From: Flagellimonas flava | GTDB taxonomy: Bacteria; Bacteroidota; Bacteroidia; Flavobacteriales; Flavobacteriaceae | NCBI RefSeq assembly: GCF_900129665.1 | Contig: NZ_FQWL01000002.1 | Span: 496,001 to 560,000 of the forward strand | Direction: 5' to 3' | Length of the DNA: 64,000 bases | Part shown: in pieces, positions 53,036-61,354 of the stretch | Layout of the letters: each line of letters starts with the position of its first letter | How positions within the stretch are numbered: the stretch's first letter is position 1 | Translations under genes and position numbers: made by a program | Notes under the pieces: model-generated | The model's database searches: none | Told to the model about the DNA's origin: nothing | What the model saw: the letters and a program-made list of their open reading frames with translations, nothing else

Positions 53036-54577
53036 TTATTTATACGGCCATATTTTATCAACCGCAACCTTATACGTTGGATCTTCCATCACGTTTACCT
53101 CAATGATGTCATCCGCGTTTTTGAGAAGGCGTCTACAATCTCTACTTAGGTGTTTCAGGTGGACATGTTTACCCACCTTTTTGTAGCGCTCAGTGATTTT
53201 GTTGACGGCCTCAATTGCCGACATATCCACCAATCTGCTTTCTTGAAAATCGATTACCACCTCTTCTGGATCATTTAATACATCAAACTTTTCCGAAAAC
53301 AAGGTGGTACTTCCAAAGAAAAGCGGTCCATAGATTTCGTAGTGCTTTACACCATGTTCATCCACGTGTTTCCTCGCTCGAATTCGGATAGCATTATCCC
53401 ATGCAAATACCAAGGCCGAAATGACAACACCAACCAGTACCGCAAGTGCCAAATTATGCAAGAAGACGGTCACTAAGGTAACCAAGACCATCACCAAAAC
53501 ATCGGACTTTGGCATCCTTCTAAAAGTTCTTAGACTCGCCCACTCAAAAGTTCCCAGAGCGACCATGATCATCAATCCAGTCAAAGCTGCCATAGGTACT
53601 TTTTCTATAAGGCTGGAACCAAACATGATAAAGGCCAAAAGCATCAATGAGGCTACAATTCCAGATAATCTGGCCCTAGCCCCATTTGAAGTATTGATCA
53701 AACTTTGTCCTATCATGGCACAACCGCCCATTCCCGAAAACAAACCAGAGAGAATGTTTGCGGTACCTTGTGCAACAGCTTCCTTGTTACCTCTCCCGCG
53801 GGTTTCCGTGATCTCATCCACAATGTTCAGAGTCAACAGACTTTCAATAAGTCCTACACCCGCAACTATGGCCGCATAAGGAAAAATAATTTGTAAAGTT
53901 TCCAAGGTAAAGGGTAAATCAGGAACGTGAAAAGGAGGGAAACTCCCTTGAATAGAAGCTATATCGCCAATCGTACGGGTATCCACATCGAAGAAGAAAA
54001 CAATCCCAAAAACCAATAAGATGGCCACCAAAGACGCTGGAACAACCTTGCTCAATTTTGGTAGTCCCCAAATGATGAGCATGGTTAAAATCACCAACCC
54101 AAGAAATATGTAAAGTGTGGCTCCACTTAACCAAGTACCATCTTCCCCTTTAAATTGATCCATTTGGGACAGGAATATGATAATGGCCAAACCGTTTACG
54201 AAACCAAATATTACAGGATGGGGAACCAATCGCATCAACTTCCCTAACCGCAGAAAACCAGCCGCAACTTGAAGCAATCCTGCCAAAATAACGGTAGCAA
54301 AAATGTATTCCACTCCGTATTGTTTGGCCAAACTCACAATTACCACCGCTACCGCTCCTGTTGCACCAGAAATCATTCCAGGTCTACCTCCCAAAATGGA
54401 AGTGACCAAGCCCATAACAAATGCCGCATACAGGCCGGTTAAAGGCGAAAGACCGGCAATAAAAGCAAAGGCGATGGCCTCTGGGACCAAGGCAAGGGCC
54501 ACCGTAAGGCCCGAAAGTACTTCGGTACGGTAGTTGACTTTTTGGGAAAAATCGAAAAGGTTGAGATACTTTTTCAT
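53036..54577 (-). CDS. SulP-family anion transporter with STAS domain
   Basis: A 513-residue SulP/SLC26-type transporter: membrane part at about 15-400 with ALVPEAIAFAFIAGLSPLTG and a glycine-rich region GLFSGMGGCAMIGQSLINT, then a C-terminal STAS domain at about 435-510 (EVVIDFQESRLVDMSAIEAV). Substrate may be sulfate, bicarbonate or other anions; no cys genes or carbonic anhydrase are next to it. The upstream region has a perfect -7 element and an 8-bp-arm inverted repeat over the -33 position. Confidence 0.93.
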   Translation of the reverse strand: MKKYLNLFDFSQKVNYRTEVLSGLTVALALVPEAIAFAFIAGLSPLTGLYAAFVMGLVTSILGGRPGMISGATGAVAVVIVSLAKQYGVEYIFATVILAGLLQVAAGFLRLGKLMRLVPHPVIFGFVNGLAIIIFLSQMDQFKGEDGTWLSGATLYIFLGLVILTMLIIWGLPKLSKVVPASLVAILLVFGIVFFFDVDTRTIGDIASIQGSFPPFHVPDLPFTLETLQIIFPYAAIVAGVGLIESLLTLNIVDEITETRGRGNKEAVAQGTANILSGLFSGMGGCAMIGQSLINTSNGARARLSGIVASLMLLAFIMFGSSLIEKVPMAALTGLMIMVALGTFEWASLRTFRRMPKSDVLVMVLVTLVTVFLHNLALAVLVGVVISALVFAWDNAIRIRARKHVDEHGVKHYEIYGPLFFGSTTLFSEKFDVLNDPEEVVIDFQESRLVDMSAIEAVNKITERYKKVGKHVHLKHLSRDCRRLLKNADDIIEVNVMEDPTYKVAVDKIWPYK

Positions 54578-54596
54578 AGCTCCTGTTTGAAGCCGG

Positions 54597-54604
54597 CAAA
54601 AATA
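54597..54604 (-). promoter_or_regulatory. -7 element of the SulP gene
   Basis: TATTTTTG on the minus strand fits TAnnTTTG exactly, 19 bp before the ATG. The -33 position (near 54624-54626, TTC) is weak and covered by the inverted repeat at 54627-54644, as expected for a regulated promoter. Confidence 0.5.
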
Positions 54605-54626
54605 GCACTATTCACCACATGAAGCG

Positions 54627-54644
54627 AATTCGTACCTACGAATT
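54627..54644. repeat. Inverted repeat over the SulP promoter
   Basis: AATTCGTA-CC-TACGAATT: 8-bp perfect arms with a 2-bp centre, directly upstream of the -33 region. A good size and position for a dimeric regulator. Confidence 0.45.
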
Positions 54645-54661
54645 GATGAAATCTTAGCCCA

Positions 54662-54679
54662 AGTGATAATAAAATCACT
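54662..54679. repeat. Second inverted repeat upstream of SulP
   Basis: AGTGAT-N6-ATCACT, perfect 6-bp arms between the SDR stop and the SulP promoter. Without a T-run it is a poor terminator; function open. Confidence 0.3.
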
Positions 54680-54704
54680 ATTTCTGAACATAATGTGCTG
54701 ATTT

Positions 54705-55499
54705 CTAAAAAATTCCACCCGTACTTCCACCATCAATTTTAATAGCGGCACTATTGGTCGCTGAAGACAACGGACTGGATAAATACGTAATCGTATGGGC
54801 CACCTCATCTACCGTGGCAAAACGTTGTAATAATGAAGAAGTCCGCACCTCTGTAAAAAAATCAGCTTCTACCTCCGCCTTTGTCCGAGCTGTTTTTTCC
54901 GCTTCCATTTCTAAAAATCGTTCTGCTCCGTCAGAAAGTGTAGATCCAGGCAAGACAGAATTCACAGTCACTCCGGTTCCTTTGGTCAATTGCGCCAACC
55001 CTTTTGAAACAGCCAACATAGCTGTTTTCGTCATACTGTATGCTAACATATCCGGCGGGACCAAGGCCGCACATTCGCTTGAAACAAATACAATTCGACC
55101 CCAATTGTTTTCCAACATTTTAGGCAGAAATTCCCTAGAGAGTCGAACCCCGCTCATAACATTGACCTCAAACTGCTGAAACCAATCTTCATCCTGCATT
55201 TCAAGGAAGGGTGCCGCCTTATAAATGCCAATGTTGTTGATTAATATATCCACCCTGGGCAAATGATGGATAAGCTCTTGTACCTGGCTTTTGTTTTCGA
55301 AGTCTGCTGCGAACCCTTTGAGACTCCCTTCTGGGAACTCGCTTTGCAAGCTATCCAAGGCCTTGTCTACGGACTTATTGGAACGGCCGTTGATAATAAC
55401 TTTGGCTCCCTCGTTCAACAAAGACTTGGCAATAGCAAAACCTATTCCTGCTGTGGAGCCTGAAATAAATGCCGTTTTCCCTTCTAATTGTAAATCCAT
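54705..55499 (-). CDS. Short-chain dehydrogenase/reductase of the AraC-linked cassette
   Basis: A 264-residue classical SDR. Cofactor loop FISGSTAGIGFAIAKSL (variant TGxxxGIG), NNxG as DILINNIGIY, catalytic Ser in FVSSECAALV and YSMTK with the catalytic Tyr and Lys. Asn-Gly-Arg-Ser after strand 2 suggests NADP preference. It would oxidise or reduce a hydroxyl of the imported substrate. ATG 55499 is chosen since it starts MDLQLEGKTAF and lies 2 bp after the symporter stop. It is the last gene of the phyH-SSS-SDR operon. Confidence 0.93.
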   Translation of the reverse strand: MDLQLEGKTAFISGSTAGIGFAIAKSLLNEGAKVIINGRSNKSVDKALDSLQSEFPEGSLKGFAADFENKSQVQELIHHLPRVDILINNIGIYKAAPFLEMQDEDWFQQFEVNVMSGVRLSREFLPKMLENNWGRIVFVSSECAALVPPDMLAYSMTKTAMLAVSKGLAQLTKGTGVTVNSVLPGSTLSDGAERFLEMEAEKTARTKAEVEADFFTEVRTSSLLQRFATVDEVAHTITYLSSPLSSATNSAAIKIDGGSTGGIF

Positions 55500-55501
55500 A
55501 A

Positions 55502-57181
55502 TTATCCTGCTAGTCCCCAGGGACTGAAAACAGCCCATAAAATCAAAACCAAAACAATGAGAACAATGGTAAGTATCATATCTCTACTGCGTCCTTTGGA
55601 CGGTTTACCCTCCTTCTTCTGAAATGTGACCAACTTCAGTTCCTCATCTGATTTTGGCTGGCCCGTTTTGCTCACCAGAGCTAACACCAAGGCGCAGAAA
55701 ACAAAAAGGAAAAGTGCAAAATGCAAAAAGTTAATATCCAAGAAAGCGGCAAAAAGTGTTCCCTCGTCCACCATCAAAATACCTTCCTTAACCATGAATT
55801 CTGTTACCAGACGGAGTATGCCCAAGAAGAATCCAGACCAAAGTGCAACAATGGCGCCCTTGGCGTTGATCCATTTGTAAAAAAGCCCGAACAAAAACAC
55901 CGCAGCAATGGGCGGTGAGATATACGCCTGTACGCTTTGCAGGTAGTGAAAGATTCCTCCTCCCATTAAGGTTTTCATGAACGGGATCCAGCCCAAACTT
56001 ACAATGACCAAAACAACTGTGGCCAATTGCCCAAACCGCACTAAGTTCTTGTCAGAGGCATTGGGTCTATACTGTTTATAAAAATCCATGGTCAACAGCG
56101 TGGAACTGGAGTTAAAAGCCGATGAGAGCGAGCTCATAAGGGCCGCTAATAAGCCAGCTATGGCCAATCCTTTTAATCCCATTGGCAAAAAATTCGTAAT
56201 CATTGCCGGTAAGGCCTGATCGGCATTTTCCAACGCAAAATTGATTTCCCCTTTTTGCATCAGGGCATAAGCGATTACCCCTGGAATAAAAAAGATGAAT
56301 ACCGGCAACAGTTTTAGGTATCCCGCAAAAAGTGCCCCTTTTCTGGCATTGGAAACATCTTTGGCCGATAGGGTCCGTTGAACAATATACTGGTCCGTAC
56401 ACCAATACCAAACACCTAAAATGGGAGCTCCAAACAGCATTCCAGTCCAGGGATATTCGGTATCCGTCATGGGACGCCATAAATTAAAGAACCGTTCTGT
56501 GGGTGGATTTCCTTCTGTATTGGCAGCCATATCCAAGGTACTGATCAAACCGTCCCATCCGCCCAATTGGTGAATTCCAAAAAGGGTAACGGCGATGGTC
56601 CCTAAAAGCAAGATTACCGCTTGTACCATATCGGTATAAATCACGGCTTTGAGTCCGCCTAGAACTGTATAGAACCCTGTGGCCAGAACTGTGACTATGG
56701 CCCCGGTCCAAAAGGGAACCCCAATGGTTTCAAAAACCAGGGCACCAGCAAAGATGATTAAGGATATTTTTGTAATCACATAGGCCAAAATGGAGACTAT
56801 GGAGAGATAGTTTCGACAGGCACGAGAATATCTTTTTTCTAAAAACTCGGGCATGGTATATACCCCTGTACGGAGGTAAAATGGAACAAAAACCCATCCC
56901 AAAAGGATAAGTACCAAAGCGGCCAAAATCTCAAAATTGGCCATGGGCATGTTCGCCCTTGCTCCCGCTCCAGAAACACCCAGAATAATCTCCGAACCGA
57001 TATTGGATGCAAATAGGGAAGCTCCCACAACCAGCCATCCTTGGTCCTTGCCTGCCAAAAAGTAATCGGCCGCAGCTCCAGAGCCGCCTTTGCCACCGGA
57101 AGCCCATTTGGCTATCCATAAAATAATTCCAAAATAAAACAGGATAATGAGAATATCCCAAGTACTGATATTGGTTAACAT
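55502..57181 (-). CDS. Sodium:solute symporter (SSS family)
   Basis: A 559-residue inner-membrane transporter with about 14 helices. The N-terminal WDILIILFYFGIILWIAKWA, YFLAGKDQGWLVVGASLFAS and the SSS signature FASNIGSEIILGVSG are of the SGLT-like (sugar/inositol) branch. Sodium-driven uptake of a polyol or sugar is likely, but unproven. It is the middle gene of the operon: 34 bp after the PhyH-type dioxygenase and 2 bp before the SDR. No sugar kinase or glycosidase accompanies it. Confidence 0.95.
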   Translation of the reverse strand: MLTNISTWDILIILFYFGIILWIAKWASGGKGGSGAAADYFLAGKDQGWLVVGASLFASNIGSEIILGVSGAGARANMPMANFEILAALVLILLGWVFVPFYLRTGVYTMPEFLEKRYSRACRNYLSIVSILAYVITKISLIIFAGALVFETIGVPFWTGAIVTVLATGFYTVLGGLKAVIYTDMVQAVILLLGTIAVTLFGIHQLGGWDGLISTLDMAANTEGNPPTERFFNLWRPMTDTEYPWTGMLFGAPILGVWYWCTDQYIVQRTLSAKDVSNARKGALFAGYLKLLPVFIFFIPGVIAYALMQKGEINFALENADQALPAMITNFLPMGLKGLAIAGLLAALMSSLSSAFNSSSTLLTMDFYKQYRPNASDKNLVRFGQLATVVLVIVSLGWIPFMKTLMGGGIFHYLQSVQAYISPPIAAVFLFGLFYKWINAKGAIVALWSGFFLGILRLVTEFMVKEGILMVDEGTLFAAFLDINFLHFALFLFVFCALVLALVSKTGQPKSDEELKLVTFQKKEGKPSKGRSRDMILTIVLIVLVLILWAVFSPWGLAG

Positions 57182-57215
57182 AGGGGGTTTAATTTGGTTT
57201 GGTCAATGCTTAAAG

Positions 57216-58187
57216 TTACCAGTTTTTTAGACCCAATAACTTTTGCCCAAGGTCGGAAAGCTCGGCGGTTTCATATTTATCCCTTTCCCAGTTCCGAGGA
57301 TCACCCGGAAAAGCATAACCTTCGGGGGCAACTCTGTTCTGCCAAGAATTGATTCGCCATTGCCTTAATTCCTCATTGTCTTCCTCAGCCGGCATCATGG
57401 AAATGTATTGTGCAATGCGGACCTTATCCCCTGATTTATTGGGACGAATTCCATGGGGTTCCGTGCTGTTGAAGATCAATAAATCCCCTGCCTCCATTTT
57501 AACCTTTACAATCTTGTCTTCAATTCCATCAAGGGCTGGTTGAAAATGATCACGGTCTTCAGGTTGGGTCAATTTCCAGGTATCATAATTACGATAGAGC
57601 CAGGGTATGCATTGGAATCCCCCCATATTTTCGTCCGTTTGGTCGGCCAAGGCCAATACACCCTGAACATTTTGCGGACGTGTTTCAGGGTCATAGTCCC
57701 AATGGATAAAGCCCTTCTTCTCAACACCCGGCTGCAAAGGAAAGTTAAGGTTTGCCCTATCTATGGTCACCCATAATTTCTCTGTTCCCCAAACATCAAC
57801 AAAAGCATCGTACACTCTAGGCATTTGCCTGTTGTTCCATAAATGCTGATGGTTGTACACCTCAACCATTCCAGTGCCTGTAAGTTCCTTCATTTTCATT
57901 TCCGCTCTTGGAGGTGCATACCAAGTTTTGGGGTCGTTGGGGTCTTTCTCGTCAAATTCCCACAAAAAATCGGCCGTGGCTTTGGCCTGTTCCCTGGGAA
58001 TCGCGTTTTTAATAACGATATAGCCATTATGTATCCAAAAGTTCCAGTCTTCTTCTGTCAACACTCTAAGTGGTTTTCCGCTGGACCTATCGTTCAACAT
58101 CATCTTGCTGCTTGTGGCCGTGGACGGATTCCCTGGAATTTCCTCATGGGCCTTGTTGGCCATTTCCAATTTTACTTCTTTTTCCAT
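57216..58187 (-). CDS. PhyH-family Fe(II)/2-oxoglutarate dioxygenase
   Basis: A 323-residue phytanoyl-CoA-dioxygenase-family enzyme. Iron ligands H162 and D164 in FIHWDYDPETRP and H245 in STEPHGIRPNKS; R257 is placed to bind 2-oxoglutarate. LLIFNSTEPHG and the double-stranded beta-helix fold are typical. Members hydroxylate small molecules such as ectoine or lipids; the substrate here should be what the linked symporter imports. It heads the operon whose promoter carries AraC-type repeats. No signal peptide, cytoplasmic. Confidence 0.93.
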   Translation of the reverse strand: MEKEVKLEMANKAHEEIPGNPSTATSSKMMLNDRSSGKPLRVLTEEDWNFWIHNGYIVIKNAIPREQAKATADFLWEFDEKDPNDPKTWYAPPRAEMKMKELTGTGMVEVYNHQHLWNNRQMPRVYDAFVDVWGTEKLWVTIDRANLNFPLQPGVEKKGFIHWDYDPETRPQNVQGVLALADQTDENMGGFQCIPWLYRNYDTWKLTQPEDRDHFQPALDGIEDKIVKVKMEAGDLLIFNSTEPHGIRPNKSGDKVRIAQYISMMPAEEDNEELRQWRINSWQNRVAPEGYAFPGDPRNWERDKYETAELSDLGQKLLGLKNW

Positions 58188-58222
58188 GATCTCTGTTTTT
58201 TCAACTTCTAAATTCTATGGGA

Positions 58223-58253
58223 TAAAACTAGGCAGCCCAATAGGTGTTCTCAA
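58223..58253 (-). promoter_or_regulatory. Promoter of the phyH-SSS-SDR operon
   Basis: On the minus strand TTG (58253-58251), a 20-bp spacer and TAGTTTTA (58230-58223) fit the -33/-7 consensus with one mismatch. The expected start is about 28 nt before the phyH ATG. The AraC-type repeats end 4 bp upstream of the -33. Confidence 0.55.
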
Positions 58254-58257
58254 CCTT

Positions 58258-58288
58258 TATATTGATTAAAATTTGAACTATATTGATT
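58258..58288. promoter_or_regulatory. Direct repeats, probable AraC-type binding site
   Basis: TATATTGATT occurs at 58258-58267 and again at 58279-58288, identical, exactly 21 bp apart and so on the same helix face. This is the spacing of half-sites for AraC-type activators, and the proximal copy ends 4 bp from the operon's -33 element. The regulator gene is divergent, 44 bp away. Confidence 0.65.
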
Positions 58289-58331
58289 TTTTATACGTAA
58301 TTTAATATTTTAGAGGGTATTAAAGTGTAAA

Positions 58332-59195
58332 TTGAAGATCCAGTTAGAGACCATAGCGCCCAATACCAAGAGTCCGTTCCGACTTTTGCATCTTCCCAGA
58401 TTGAACCATTTGTTCTATTGGCATTTTCATCCTGAGTACGAGTTGGTCTATATTGAAGGAGCCAGCGCAACCCGGCATGTGGGTGATAGTATCTCAAGTT
58501 TTGAAGGTAGCGATCTGGTCCTTATTGGCTCCAACATCCCACATCTTAACTTTGATTATGGGGTACAAACCGACTACATTAAGGATGTACTACATATAAA
58601 ACCAGAATTCAAAGACCAGTTTTTAGCCAGTATTCCAGAATTGCTGCCCATTCATGATCTATTTGAAAAATCTAGACATGGTATTGTTTTCACTGGGGAA
58701 ACCAAAAAAGTAATTGGGGAGCGATTAAAGAAGTTGCACCTTCTTTCCAACTTTGAACTTTTTATGGAGTCCATTTCCATTCTAAAGGAATTGGCCCATA
58801 GTAAGGAATATTTTCTACTGCATGAGCGTCCCTTTGTGAATCGTTATCGAAAAAAAGAGCAGGACCGGTTAAGGGGAATACATGAATTTGTGGACAAGAA
58901 CTACCAGCGAAAAATTGAAATTGCCGAAGTGGCGGAACTTTGCAATCTAGGCAAAGAGGCCTTTTGCAGGTATTTTAAGAAGACTACGGGAAACACCTTC
59001 ACCAATTTTTTAAACCAGTATCGTATCAGTCAGGCACAGCGACTGTTGCTTATGGGGAAAAATGTGGGGGAAGCTTGTTATGAGTGTGGGTTTGAAAGTC
59101 TTTCGTATTTCAATCGCACCTTTAAGAAAGTCAGTGGTGAGAATCCTTCTGAATTTAAAAGACAGTATTTGGTAAACCGAGGAAGGAGGGCCTAA
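58332..59195 (+). CDS. AraC-family transcriptional regulator
   Basis: A 287-residue regulator: N-terminal cupin-type ligand domain (residues about 1-150; FYWHFHPEYELVYIEGASAT, DLVLIGSNIPHLNF) and a C-terminal double HTH domain (about 185-283; IEIAEVAELCNLGKEAFCRY, FESLSYFNRTFKKVSGENPS). The start used is a TTG at 58332; there is no in-frame ATG nearby and the conserved beginning starts at this codon. It is divergent from the dioxygenase-symporter-SDR operon, with AraC-type direct repeats between, and most likely activates that operon when its ligand is bound. Confidence 0.93.
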   Translation: MKIQLETIAPNTKSPFRLLHLPRLNHLFYWHFHPEYELVYIEGASATRHVGDSISSFEGSDLVLIGSNIPHLNFDYGVQTDYIKDVLHIKPEFKDQFLASIPELLPIHDLFEKSRHGIVFTGETKKVIGERLKKLHLLSNFELFMESISILKELAHSKEYFLLHERPFVNRYRKKEQDRLRGIHEFVDKNYQRKIEIAEVAELCNLGKEAFCRYFKKTTGNTFTNFLNQYRISQAQRLLLMGKNVGEACYECGFESLSYFNRTFKKVSGENPSEFKRQYLVNRGRRA

Positions 59196-59215
59196 GGCTG
59201 GAATGCCCATAAAAA

Positions 59216-59252
59216 AAGAACCGCCCCAAGCTCAGAACTTGAGGCGATTCTT
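59216..59252 (-). terminator. Terminator after the 59.3-kb lipoprotein gene
   Basis: On the minus strand a long stem with two mismatches (AAGAA, CGCC and CAAG arms) around a 7-nt loop, followed by seven T. It lies next to copy 2 of the 17-nt motif and also ends the convergent AraC transcript from the other side. Confidence 0.7.
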
Positions 59253-59254
59253 AA

Positions 59255-59271
59255 CTAAATAACCAACCAAA
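59255..59271 (-). repeat. 17-nt motif, copy 2
   Basis: CTAAATAACCAACCAAA on the plus strand, identical to 26029-26045. Here it lies in the 3' UTR of the lipoprotein gene, directly before its terminator. Confidence 0.6.
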
Positions 59272-59307
59272 AAACTTGTTATAGTAGTCGAACACTAATT
59301 TCTTTCC

Positions 59308-60231
59308 TTACTTTTTTCTTTGCCTTGTAACAGACATTATAGAATTTTTAACTTTTGAACGTTTCTTTCCTACCTTGTTACCGGACTTCAAATATTGAAT
59401 GTAACCCCTACCTTGGAACTCATATACTGTTTCACTGGCCACATGGTACAATTCAATGGTACTATCATCAATAACGTACAATTCAAAATAGTCATTGCCC
59501 AGAAAGTCATAATCCAGTGTTAAAGTTTTTAGTGTACCGTCATTGGCCACATCAAAGACTTCGTAATCGCCCTCATAATCCCATTGGAGATTAGGAATTG
59601 GTGTTCCGCTACCGTCTACGGATGACCTAAAAAAGGGTCCATTGTTTCCGGAAAGAAACTGCAGATAGTTCTCGTCATCAAACTCGTTTACAGCGCCTAT
59701 TTCGCTGGTATACGTTTTCTCCCATGCTTGGTATTCTTGCAAGAAGTAATTGATATTGTCATAGAATATCCCATCGTAATCAAAATTGTTGCGCTGATAA
59801 CCCTGTAGAATGTAGGATGTATTGGAACGTGAATCAAACAATTCAATGGTGCTACTGTTTACAGCATAGACATCCAGAACCCAAGTGCCATCAACATCAT
59901 GGTCTATTTCCACCGCGCCGAACAAGGTACCATAAGTACCCACATCCAATCCCAATCCACCTGCTGTTTTTCCAATTCCAACTAGATTGTTGTTGGCCCT
60001 AAATACCCCACGGTCAAAGGTGACTGTAAAGGCACGTTGCAAAAATGGAACTTCCCCGTTGCCCTTGGTAGCATTGATATCTATATACCATAAATCAAAG
60101 GATTCCAAAACCAGGGCGGTATTTACGGGTGATTCTTCAATGAAGTCGTCTTCAATAAGGACTTCTGTGTAACAAGAACTGGCTAACAAGCCTATACTTA
60201 TAATTGCTAAGAGTAGTTTTCCATTTTTCAT
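59308..60231 (-). CDS. Lipoprotein of unknown function
   Basis: A 307-residue lipoprotein with lipobox LASSC (Cys20), followed by an acidic stretch (YTEVLIEDDFIEESP). The mature part is beta-rich with two similar halves (YEVFDVANDG.. and GTYGTLFGAVEIDHD..; both carry a strand with STIELFD or STIELYH), suggesting an internal duplication. The C-terminus is strongly basic (KVGKKRSKVKNS). No known domain. Its 3' UTR carries the 17-nt motif and a terminator. Function unknown. Confidence 0.78.
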   Translation of the reverse strand: MKNGKLLLAIISIGLLASSCYTEVLIEDDFIEESPVNTALVLESFDLWYIDINATKGNGEVPFLQRAFTVTFDRGVFRANNNLVGIGKTAGGLGLDVGTYGTLFGAVEIDHDVDGTWVLDVYAVNSSTIELFDSRSNTSYILQGYQRNNFDYDGIFYDNINYFLQEYQAWEKTYTSEIGAVNEFDDENYLQFLSGNNGPFFRSSVDGSGTPIPNLQWDYEGDYEVFDVANDGTLKTLTLDYDFLGNDYFELYVIDDSTIELYHVASETVYEFQGRGYIQYLKSGNKVGKKRSKVKNSIMSVTRQRKK

Positions 60232-60302
60232 ACTTTGGGTTTTTGATTCAGTTTGAATGGACCAAGCACCATGCCAAGATTTTAACTAATTGATAATCAG
60301 TG

Positions 60303-60336
60303 TTTAATACCTCATTAAATATATTTTTTAGTTTTG
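60303..60336 (+). promoter_or_regulatory. Promoter of gpsA
   Basis: TTTA (60303-60306), a 22-bp spacer and TAGTTTTG (60329-60336), which fits TAnnTTTG exactly. The expected start is about 10 nt before the gpsA ATG. Confidence 0.5.
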
Positions 60337-60352
60337 CCCTTAAATCTGGACA

Positions 60353-61354
60353 ATGAAGGAAAATCTTCGTTTTGGTGTTATTGGCGGAGGAAGCTGGGGT
60401 ACCGCTATTGTAAAAATGCTTTCCGAAAACTTGGACCAACTTTCATGGTACATGCGAAGTGATTCCGCCATCAGACATTTACAAAAGGAAAACCACAATC
60501 CCAATTATCTAAGTTCCGTAGAGTTTAATGTTTCCAAACTTCACCTCAGCAACGACATGAATTCAGTAGTTGCTGAATCAGATGTGCTTGTTTTTGCCAT
60601 TCCCTCTGCTTTTTTGGAGGCAGAACTACAACAATTATCCACCTCATTGAAGGATAAAATCATTTTTTCCGCTATTAAGGGCATTGTACCTGAAAGCGGT
60701 TTGATCGTTGGGGAACACTTTCATGATGAGTACCAGATTCCGTTTGAAAATATAGGGGTATTGACTGGTCCCTGCCATGCCGAAGAGGTTGCCCTGGAGC
60801 GCTTGTCCTACCTTACCATTGCCTGCGCGGATGCCTCCAAAGCGGAATTGGTGGCAAACACCTTGCAAAGCCATTATATCCGAACTAAAATTTCTGATGA
60901 CATTATTGGTACGGAGTATGCGGCCATGCTCAAGAACATCTACGCTATTGCCGCGGGGATAGCTCATGGATTGGGCTATGGTGACAATTTCCAAAGTGTG
61001 CTCATGAGCAATGCCATTCGGGAGATGAAGCGATTTATAGACAAGGTCTACAAAATGAAGCGCAACATCAATAATTCGGCTTATTTAGGGGACTTATTGG
61101 TTACCGGCTATTCCGTTTTTAGTCGAAATAGAATGTTTGGGAACATGATAGGTAAGGGATATACGGTCAAGAGTGCCATGATGGAGATGAACATGGTTGC
61201 CGAAGGGTACTACGCTACCAAAAGTGCACATTTGATCAACCAAAACCGGATCAAGAAGACCAAGACTCCGATTATAAACGCAGTATATCAAATACTTTAC
61301 GAAAACAAGAACCCCAAAAAGGTCTTCCGAAAGCTTACTGAAAAACTGAACTGA
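60353..61354 (+). CDS. gpsA: NAD(P)H-dependent glycerol-3-phosphate dehydrogenase
   Basis: A 333-residue cytoplasmic enzyme reducing dihydroxyacetone phosphate to sn-glycerol-3-phosphate for phospholipid synthesis. N-terminal dinucleotide loop GVIGGGSWGTAIVKML, TGPCHAEEVALERLSYLTIA, and the catalytic Lys in EYAAMLKNIYAIAAGIAHGL. The promoter just upstream gives a short leader. The convergent LytTR gene ends 1 bp away. Confidence 0.97.
   Translation: MKENLRFGVIGGGSWGTAIVKMLSENLDQLSWYMRSDSAIRHLQKENHNPNYLSSVEFNVSKLHLSNDMNSVVAESDVLVFAIPSAFLEAELQQLSTSLKDKIIFSAIKGIVPESGLIVGEHFHDEYQIPFENIGVLTGPCHAEEVALERLSYLTIACADASKAELVANTLQSHYIRTKISDDIIGTEYAAMLKNIYAIAAGIAHGLGYGDNFQSVLMSNAIREMKRFIDKVYKMKRNINNSAYLGDLLVTGYSVFSRNRMFGNMIGKGYTVKSAMMEMNMVAEGYYATKSAHLINQNRIKKTKTPIINAVYQILYENKNPKKVFRKLTEKLN

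Follow-up and report, generated by a model that had tools for sequence, protein, structure and literature searches.

The window analyzed here, 64,000 nt of Flagellimonas flava contig NZ_FQWL01000002.1 (all window coordinates count from its first letter), contains a putative Fe(II)/2-oxoglutarate (2OG) oxygenase gene of the PhyH superfamily that is divergent from a gene for an AraC-family regulator and is followed by genes for a sodium/solute symporter (SSS) and a short-chain dehydrogenase/reductase (SDR). Our comparative analysis establishes that this locus represents a real, regulated and widely conserved oxygenase unit, which is accompanied by a dehydrogenase specific to it and, optionally, by a sugar-type pump. 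The conserved unit consists of AraC, an operator-like sequence and PhyH; the SDR is a frequent and specific partner of this unit, and the SSS can be present as a third gene. For a highly conserved family of oxygenases that occurs from flavobacteria to haloarchaea, the locus thereby supplies both a regulator and an operator-like sequence, as well as a partner enzyme and a transporter, and since these are now linked to PhyH its substrate can be searched for by induction and growth tests. We tentatively favor, at somewhat short of an even chance, an inducible module in which AraC would activate the uptake of a neutral sugar-like small molecule and its oxidation in two steps.

Composition of the conserved unit

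The association of AraC with PhyH was counted in two sets of loci. The first comprises 103 loci (the window, the best 80 PhyH loci and 22 more distant loci) and does not count six fetched loci (L133, L136-L138, L158, L159) whose PhyH gene the open reading frame caller missed. The second comprises all 140 PhyH loci in hand, which encode 133 distinct proteins and include some genomes twice. A BLAST match to AraC lies directly upstream of and divergent from PhyH in 81 of the 103 loci, and AraC is divergent in 108 of the 140. In the genus, 34 of 60 genomes have an AraC ortholog (59% or more), and every one of them also has a PhyH match. The divergent pair also occurs in several other Bacteroidota families and in the betaproteobacterium Roseateles, where the regulator is 24% identical.

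Partnership with the SDR was assessed by counting PhyH, SDR and their adjacency in a sample of 397 Flavobacteriaceae genomes, the window included. PhyH is present in 75 of these genomes and an SDR (E 1e-70 or better) in 42, at 43 places; 28 genomes contain both and in 20 the two genes are adjacent (Fisher p 3.6e-13 for the association, a value that ignores kinship). All 13 SDRs of 60% or more identity, the window's among them, lie beside PhyH, as do 7 at the other 30 places. Besides the window's own, 34 of 42 SDR places were fetched, including all 19 adjacent ones. A correlation of PhyH and SDR distances (0.73 over 27 loci) has no control and is not used as support.

The full order AraC-PhyH-SSS-SDR recurs in 12 of the 75 PhyH-bearing genomes, the window included. 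Thus the four-gene cassette proposed in a preliminary description of this DNA does recur in relatives as an order, but the conserved unit is the smaller one, with the SDR as its frequent partner and the SSS as an option. Across the 140 loci an SDR is in line in 33 and an SSS in 24; the SSS is followed by an SDR in 23 of these 24, the remaining one (L308) being a lone AraC-PhyH-SSS locus, and the SDR occurs without the SSS in 10. Within the 60 genus genomes the SSS (86% or more) and the SDR (70% or more) are found in the same 3.

The gene next in line after PhyH is SulP in 64, SSS in 10 and SDR in 2 of the 103 loci. This frequency would be explained if SulP were the functional partner and PhyH acted on an organic anion imported by an SLC26-type carrier, and the closest solved relative of the window SulP is 5da0, which we take to be a fumarate carrier. 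However, SulP is single-copy in 59 of the 60 genus genomes, with or without PhyH, whereas PhyH matches are found in 40 even when broken copies are counted. In nine fetched genomes that lack PhyH, SulP is located beside the gene p593 at its usual place in six (L167-L169, L171, L177, L178), close to p593 in two (L172, L175) and elsewhere in one (L170), and in the distant loci outside the family SulP is not beside PhyH. SulP was therefore rejected as a dedicated part, as it is a genus core gene that is also kept where PhyH is absent, and a functional partnership of the two is very improbable.

Layout of the locus

The open reading frames, strands, divergent AraC gene and Pfam matches (PhyH, SSF, adh_short and HTH_18) bear out the preliminary description of four real genes (Table 1), and their conservation in many relatives argues that the gene set is no chance arrangement. 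The 34-bp gap between PhyH and SSS and the 2-bp gap between SSS and SDR that were claimed were also recovered, the latter when the SDR is started at its second Met, giving 264 aa. The longest SDR open reading frame starts at 55538 and overlaps the SSS gene by 37 bp. The later start is probably the correct one because 23 of the 27 SDRs beside distinct PhyH proteins are 263-264 aa long.

Table 1. Features of the oxygenase locus in the window
Feature	Position	Strand	Evidence or remark
PhyH-superfamily Fe(II)/2-oxoglutarate oxygenase (predicted), 323 aa	57216..58187	-	Pfam PhyH 35.9 bits; H162/D164/H245 iron, R257 2OG
SGLT-type sodium/solute symporter (SSS), 559 aa	55502..57181	-	Pfam SSF 294 bits; SGLT1 7sl8 387 bits
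SDR dehydrogenase, 264 aa from likely start 55499	54705..55499	-	Pfam adh_short 148 bits; closest solved 3t4x 265 bits
AraC-family regulator, divergent from PhyH, TTG start	58332..59195	+	Pfam HTH_18 71 bits
Probable AraC operator	58260..58287		two TATTGAY boxes 21 bp apart, TTTGAAC between
TAGTTTTA, candidate promoter element	58223..58230	-	~35 nt before PhyH ATG; putative promoter role
SulP/SLC26 anion transporter, probably not a dedicated part	53036..54577	-	next in line after SDR, 127 bp on; closest solved 5da0

The window SDR contains the motifs SGSTAGIG and YSMTK, and a TGxxxGIG-type cofactor motif together with YxxxK is present in all 27 SDRs beside PhyH, which identifies them as classical SDRs. 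Of the earlier designation as an NADP-type SDR, the family assignment holds and the use of NADP is suggested by the Arg of an NGR motif. Several related SDRs have other neighbors. An SDR 57% identical to that of the window lies away from PhyH (L254:5022-9360) with genes for a xylose-isomerase-like TIM-barrel protein, a PhoPQ-related protein, an Fe-ADH-like protein and a GMC oxidoreductase; L252 resembles this locus by gene sizes only. An SDR paralog in L258 is found with an aldo/keto reductase and an acrylyl-CoA-reductase-type protein.

The regulator and its probable operator

AraC proteins typically use two boxes about 21 bp apart, and the gap between AraC and PhyH carries the sequence TATTGAY-N5-TTTGAACWATATTGAY with 0 mismatches. 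One further operator-like site in the window, with 3 mismatches, lies inside the SulP gene (53692-53719) and is probably a chance match. A loose form of the motif, [AT]NTTGAY-N16-TTGAY, is present in 51 of 102 upstream regions versus 0.38 expected from the remainder of the same loci; nine of the 102 regions had served to spot the motif, and the match in L048 is unlike the others. Of these matches, 50 fall in the first 80 loci and one in the 22 distant loci; the site thus characterizes the flavobacterial clade, though some of its members lack it. We infer that AraC binds this two-box site and activates PhyH. A second element closer to the oxygenase gene, TAGTTTTA, does not vary at five of its eight columns across 10 aligned intergenic regions and resembles the Bacteroidota -7 promoter element TAnnTTTG, which makes it a candidate promoter element.

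The cupin ligand domain previously ascribed to the regulator was not recovered, as Pfam detects its helix-turn-helix alone and the RhaS model covers residues 27-278 at 59 bits, with a cut-off of 288. The preliminary description was silent on the operator, on the in-line SulP gene and on the link of PhyH to Gig2-like proteins and YbiU described below.

The oxygenase family and its distribution

The window PhyH scores above the Pfam PF05721 cut-off of 22 bits and is thus a member of the superfamily; in a scan of 8 members of its family one (L135) was just under the cut-off at 19.6. The iron ligands H162, D164 and H245, all of which had been recognized earlier, and the 2OG ligand R257 are invariant in 15 of 15 aligned family members, as are Y111, W117, R120, D143, R144, N146, Q175, Q192, C193, Q260 and Y261. 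By its fold and intact active-site motifs the protein is predicted to be a 2OG-dependent oxygenase. Conservation is high throughout, with a mean column identity of 82% over 55 members.

A homologue search gave a best 80 loci at 81-92% identity, all from Flavobacteriaceae or from unclassified Bacteroidia or Flavobacteriales, and among the matches listed the closest named loci are from Flagellimonas species (92% identical). Matches at E 1e-20 or better are present in 37 of 395 genomes of the phylum, and seven of the weaker ones among these, 33-38% identical, form a sister profile (A5). The family also appears in 29 plasmid records, from Gemmatirosa (71%), Roseateles, Agrobacterium, Streptomyces and relatives, and two haloarchaea, such that the family spans Gemmatimonadota, Pseudomonadota, Streptomyces and haloarchaea besides Bacteroidota. 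None of 19 pattern stretches considered as viral or phage copies was confirmed, and phage records gave no match. An open-literature search returned no substrate and no characterized subfamily for the window PhyH family, and nothing on the AraC-PhyH-SSS-SDR arrangement; a characterized subfamily with an unrelated substrate, which would have spoken against the earlier interpretation, was therefore not encountered.

Within the genus some copies are decaying. There is a broken gene (G018:C1:445668-446617), a remnant (G027:C45:5752-5847) and a copy with one stop (G003:C41:20028-20993), indicating that PhyH is being lost in places. The F. flava genome also has a second PhyH of a different PhyH group (L001:1408-2118, contig C12) that is divergent from an AraC-like gene and adjoins another enzyme gene, which is the same arrangement.

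Relationship to YbiU and Gig2-like proteins

By profile comparison, the PhyH family is nearer to Gig2-like/DUF1479 proteins (PF07350; E. coli YbiU, Candida Gig2) than to three other PhyH groups of the genus. In local hhalign comparisons YbiU-type profiles scored 90.9% (E 1.1e-6) and 93.3% versus 1.1, 22.3 and 0.8% for the three genus groups, and in global mode 95 and 93% versus 0.03-0.24%. The similarity extends over residues 43-323 and includes a C-terminal FP...L..LG..LG motif, and 24 columns are conserved in at least 14 of 15 PhyH-family members and in 5 of 5 YbiU-type proteins, including R120, D143, R144, Q175 and G176. Unlike YbiU and Gig2, members of the PhyH family are about 100 residues shorter, and hhalign leaves the HxD iron motifs unsuperposed. 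When the profile was built from three PhyH-family members only, the local YbiU score was 34-49% and that of controls 0.1-3.3%, and a control profile of two unlike PhyHs from the same genome still reached 48% against the PhyH family. The Gig2-like cut-off of 27 bits was missed by the window PhyH (17.8 bits) and by the best of 8 members (23.6). A Gig2-like profile run over 247 genomes of the class had no match, but its control also matched nowhere, so this result shows no absence.

Solved structures gave no phmmer match to PhyH up to E 1, and profile matches to them were weak or partial, the best being 2a1x (E 1.2e-5), with EctD at E 0.0019 over positions 26-241. The AlphaFold2 model of PhyH is of medium quality (pLDDT 69.6, pTM 0.78). 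With this model VIA-align placed YbiU-type chains at ranks 1-4 (Z 18.2-16.9; 4rgk with Z 18.2, rmsd 3.7 and 264 aligned residues), followed by ColD, Gig2 (6akz), SnoN and GriE at Z 16-17, and Foldseek ranked OkaE and HygX high by E-value at TM-scores of 0.4-0.6. EctD (Z 15.5) and human PHYH (Z 15.7), both of PF05721, share the fold and the iron and 2OG ligands but are only 15-18% identical over the fold matches.

The genomic context of YbiU suggests what such an enzyme might do. In E. coli ybiU adjoins ybiV and ybiW, and the accessible part of PMC8464067 reports binding of YciT upstream of ybiUVWY. According to an excerpt of PMC12441222, YbiW cleaves 1,5-anhydroglucitol-6-phosphate, an enzyme for aerobic use of 1,5-anhydroglucitol is still to be identified, and the C1 hydroxylase of 1,5-anhydromannitol, termed P450-like, is missing. 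A Klebsiella pneumoniae plasmid (L184, 2533-13316) encodes a DUF1479 protein with a glycyl-radical enzyme and its activase, a HAD phosphatase, a LacI regulator, an MFS carrier and a GH31 protein, and on two Pantoea plasmids DUF1479 lies beside a HAD phosphatase and YciT, the fetched 15 kb containing no glycyl-radical enzyme. This context and the plasmid blocks make an O2-dependent role of YbiU on anhydro-sugars plausible, and by distant relation such a role of the PhyH family. On a Caballeronia plasmid (L186, 10905-15607) DUF1479 is divergent from a helix-turn-helix regulator and has genes for an ABC binding protein and an aldo/keto reductase after it.

An alternative to the reading that we favor is thus that PhyH hydroxylates a 1,5-anhydro sugar alcohol (1,5-anhydroglucitol, -mannitol or -xylitol) at C1 with O2 to give a hexose or pentose, with the SDR oxidizing the sugar or interconverting an anhydro-ketose. 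Such a role would agree with the position of PhyH, beyond its sister group, nearest to YbiU-type proteins, with the Pantoea arrangement and with the single altered sugar contact of the symporter described below. We nonetheless consider it improbable given that YbiU itself has no assigned activity, that the profile controls and Gig2-like score behave as just described, that the structural ranks at Z 16-17 include other PhyH enzymes, that the excerpt of PMC12441222 calls the missing hydroxylase P450-like, and that the neighbors of the window PhyH family that were scanned, which are only part of them, include no anhydrosugar gene. In its widest form, which we rate a shade below this already low level, the PhyH family together with YbiU/Gig2-like proteins would be O2-dependent anhydro sugar alcohol hydroxylases that convert 1,5-anhydroglucitol or 1,5-anhydromannitol to hexose. 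They would be the aerobic counterpart of the glycyl-radical route, with an SGLT-like pump of altered sugar site bringing in the compound at this locus and AraC switching the genes. The comparison also ties the PhyH family to another group that has no assigned function and offers a candidate for the aerobic anhydro-sugar-alcohol hydroxylase that the available text of PMC12441222 lists as still to be found.

The symporter and the class of substrate

Among solved proteins the symporter is nearest to SGLT1/2. Its nearest SSS paralog in the same genome is 46-48% identical and sits with a LacI regulator, a xylose isomerase that passes its cut-off at 668 bits and a xylulokinase-like FGGY kinase that stays below its own, while a 58% identical paralog in another genome (L163) sits with FG-GAP/UnbV, SusD-type and LacI genes. 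We take the SGLT1 sugar site to be formed by N78, H83, E102, Y290, W291, K321 and Q457. The SSF-domain symporter beside PhyH is like SGLT1, vSGLT and the xylose-operon paralog in that six of these seven positions (N78, E102, Y290, W291, K321 and Q457) are kept in all 19 SSS copies beside PhyH. In contrast to SGLT1, the equivalent of H83 is Ile in all 19, being Ile65 in the window symporter, and it is His in the xylose-operon paralog and in two 58% paralogs. This pattern suggests that the molecule carried by the symporter is sugar-like but unlike a plain sugar at one position, an assignment that applies directly only to the minority of loci with a symporter.

Two symporter-free loci also have sugar genes: a gluconokinase-like (shikimate-kinase-type)/6-phosphogluconate dehydrogenase fusion is encoded 39 bp upstream of PhyH in L303 (4760-6640), and in L310 (4717-7172) PhyH is divergent from a GH109-type protein and a galactokinase-type GHMP kinase. 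An attempt to read the substrate from distant neighbors was abandoned, as apart from these two sugar loci the neighborhoods scanned include GH10, MacAB-TolC efflux, DUF7133/FG-GAP, LysR with PALP, carbamoyltransferase clusters and peptidases, with no theme in common.

A sugar-type symporter with one altered contact would also suit an O-methylated algal sugar. PhyH would then perform an oxidative O-demethylation to sugar and formaldehyde, as a 2OG counterpart of the P450 route for 6-O-methyl-galactose, and the hosts of the PhyH loci are presumably marine, judging by genus names. As for chemistry, the accessible portion of PMC12709175 describes PHYHD1-related PhyH proteins that demethylate 2'-O-methyl nucleosides, from which PhyH enzymes can act on sugar O-methyl groups; PHYHD1 and FJS belong to the same superfamily as the window PhyH. 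P450 demethylation of a marine methoxy sugar is likewise known from the part of PMC10033563 that is available. However, no formaldehyde-handling gene and no SusC/SusD-type gene is present among the seven window proteins scanned (53036-61354), and the PhyH family is also found in haloarchaea and Streptomyces, which are outside an algal setting. O-demethylation is accordingly a quite unlikely function.

A proposed inducible module and points against it

In the module that we favor, ligand-bound AraC would activate PhyH from the two boxes 21 bp apart, and the SGLT-type symporter, where present, would import the compound with sodium. PhyH would then oxidize one C-H with O2 and 2-oxoglutarate, yielding succinate and CO2, and the SDR would oxidize or rearrange the product so that it enters central sugar metabolism. 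Candidate substrates are a pyranose, an anhydro- or deoxy-sugar, an O-methyl sugar or a cyclitol. The uptake and oxidation of a small compound that was proposed at the outset fits in general terms, perhaps with a sugar-like compound, and is partly supported overall.

Several observations weigh against this module. An in-line SDR is missing from 107 and an in-line SSS from 116 of the 140 PhyH loci, which implies that the oxygenase works without them or with unlinked genes, and six genus genomes with a PhyH match have no AraC. On a tree of the 133 PhyH proteins the SDR label (27 proteins) needs at least 16 changes versus a mean of 25.0 and a minimum of 20 when shuffled; the label is therefore patchy, being partly inherited and often lost or gained. 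The class of substrate is derived mainly from the optional symporter. Additionally, the other PhyH neighbors scanned show no common pathway, with several PhyH genes accompanied by AraC alone, and none of the seven window proteins scanned is a kinase, an isomerase, an aldolase or a hydrolase.

These points bear on a further alternative, namely that PhyH stands alone under AraC control and serves to repair or detoxify a metabolite that is internal or diffusible, with SDR and SSS as late additions. Such a role would account for the 15 of 140 loci in which AraC is divergent but SSS, SDR and SulP are all missing in line, for the extension of the AraC-PhyH pair beyond the Flavobacteriaceae and for the strong conservation of PhyH. 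Yet the genomes with PhyH and no AraC do not conform to it, and SDR orthologs of 60% or more were not found away from PhyH in the 397 genomes, a pattern that points to a catabolic sequence, in that clade at least. We regard the stand-alone enzyme as unlikely.

Other genes of the window

On the far side of AraC, a 307-aa protein encoded at 59308-60231 has no Pfam or NCBIfam match at E 0.001. Its gene adjoins gpsA in 65 of 109 clustered loci, with or without PhyH.

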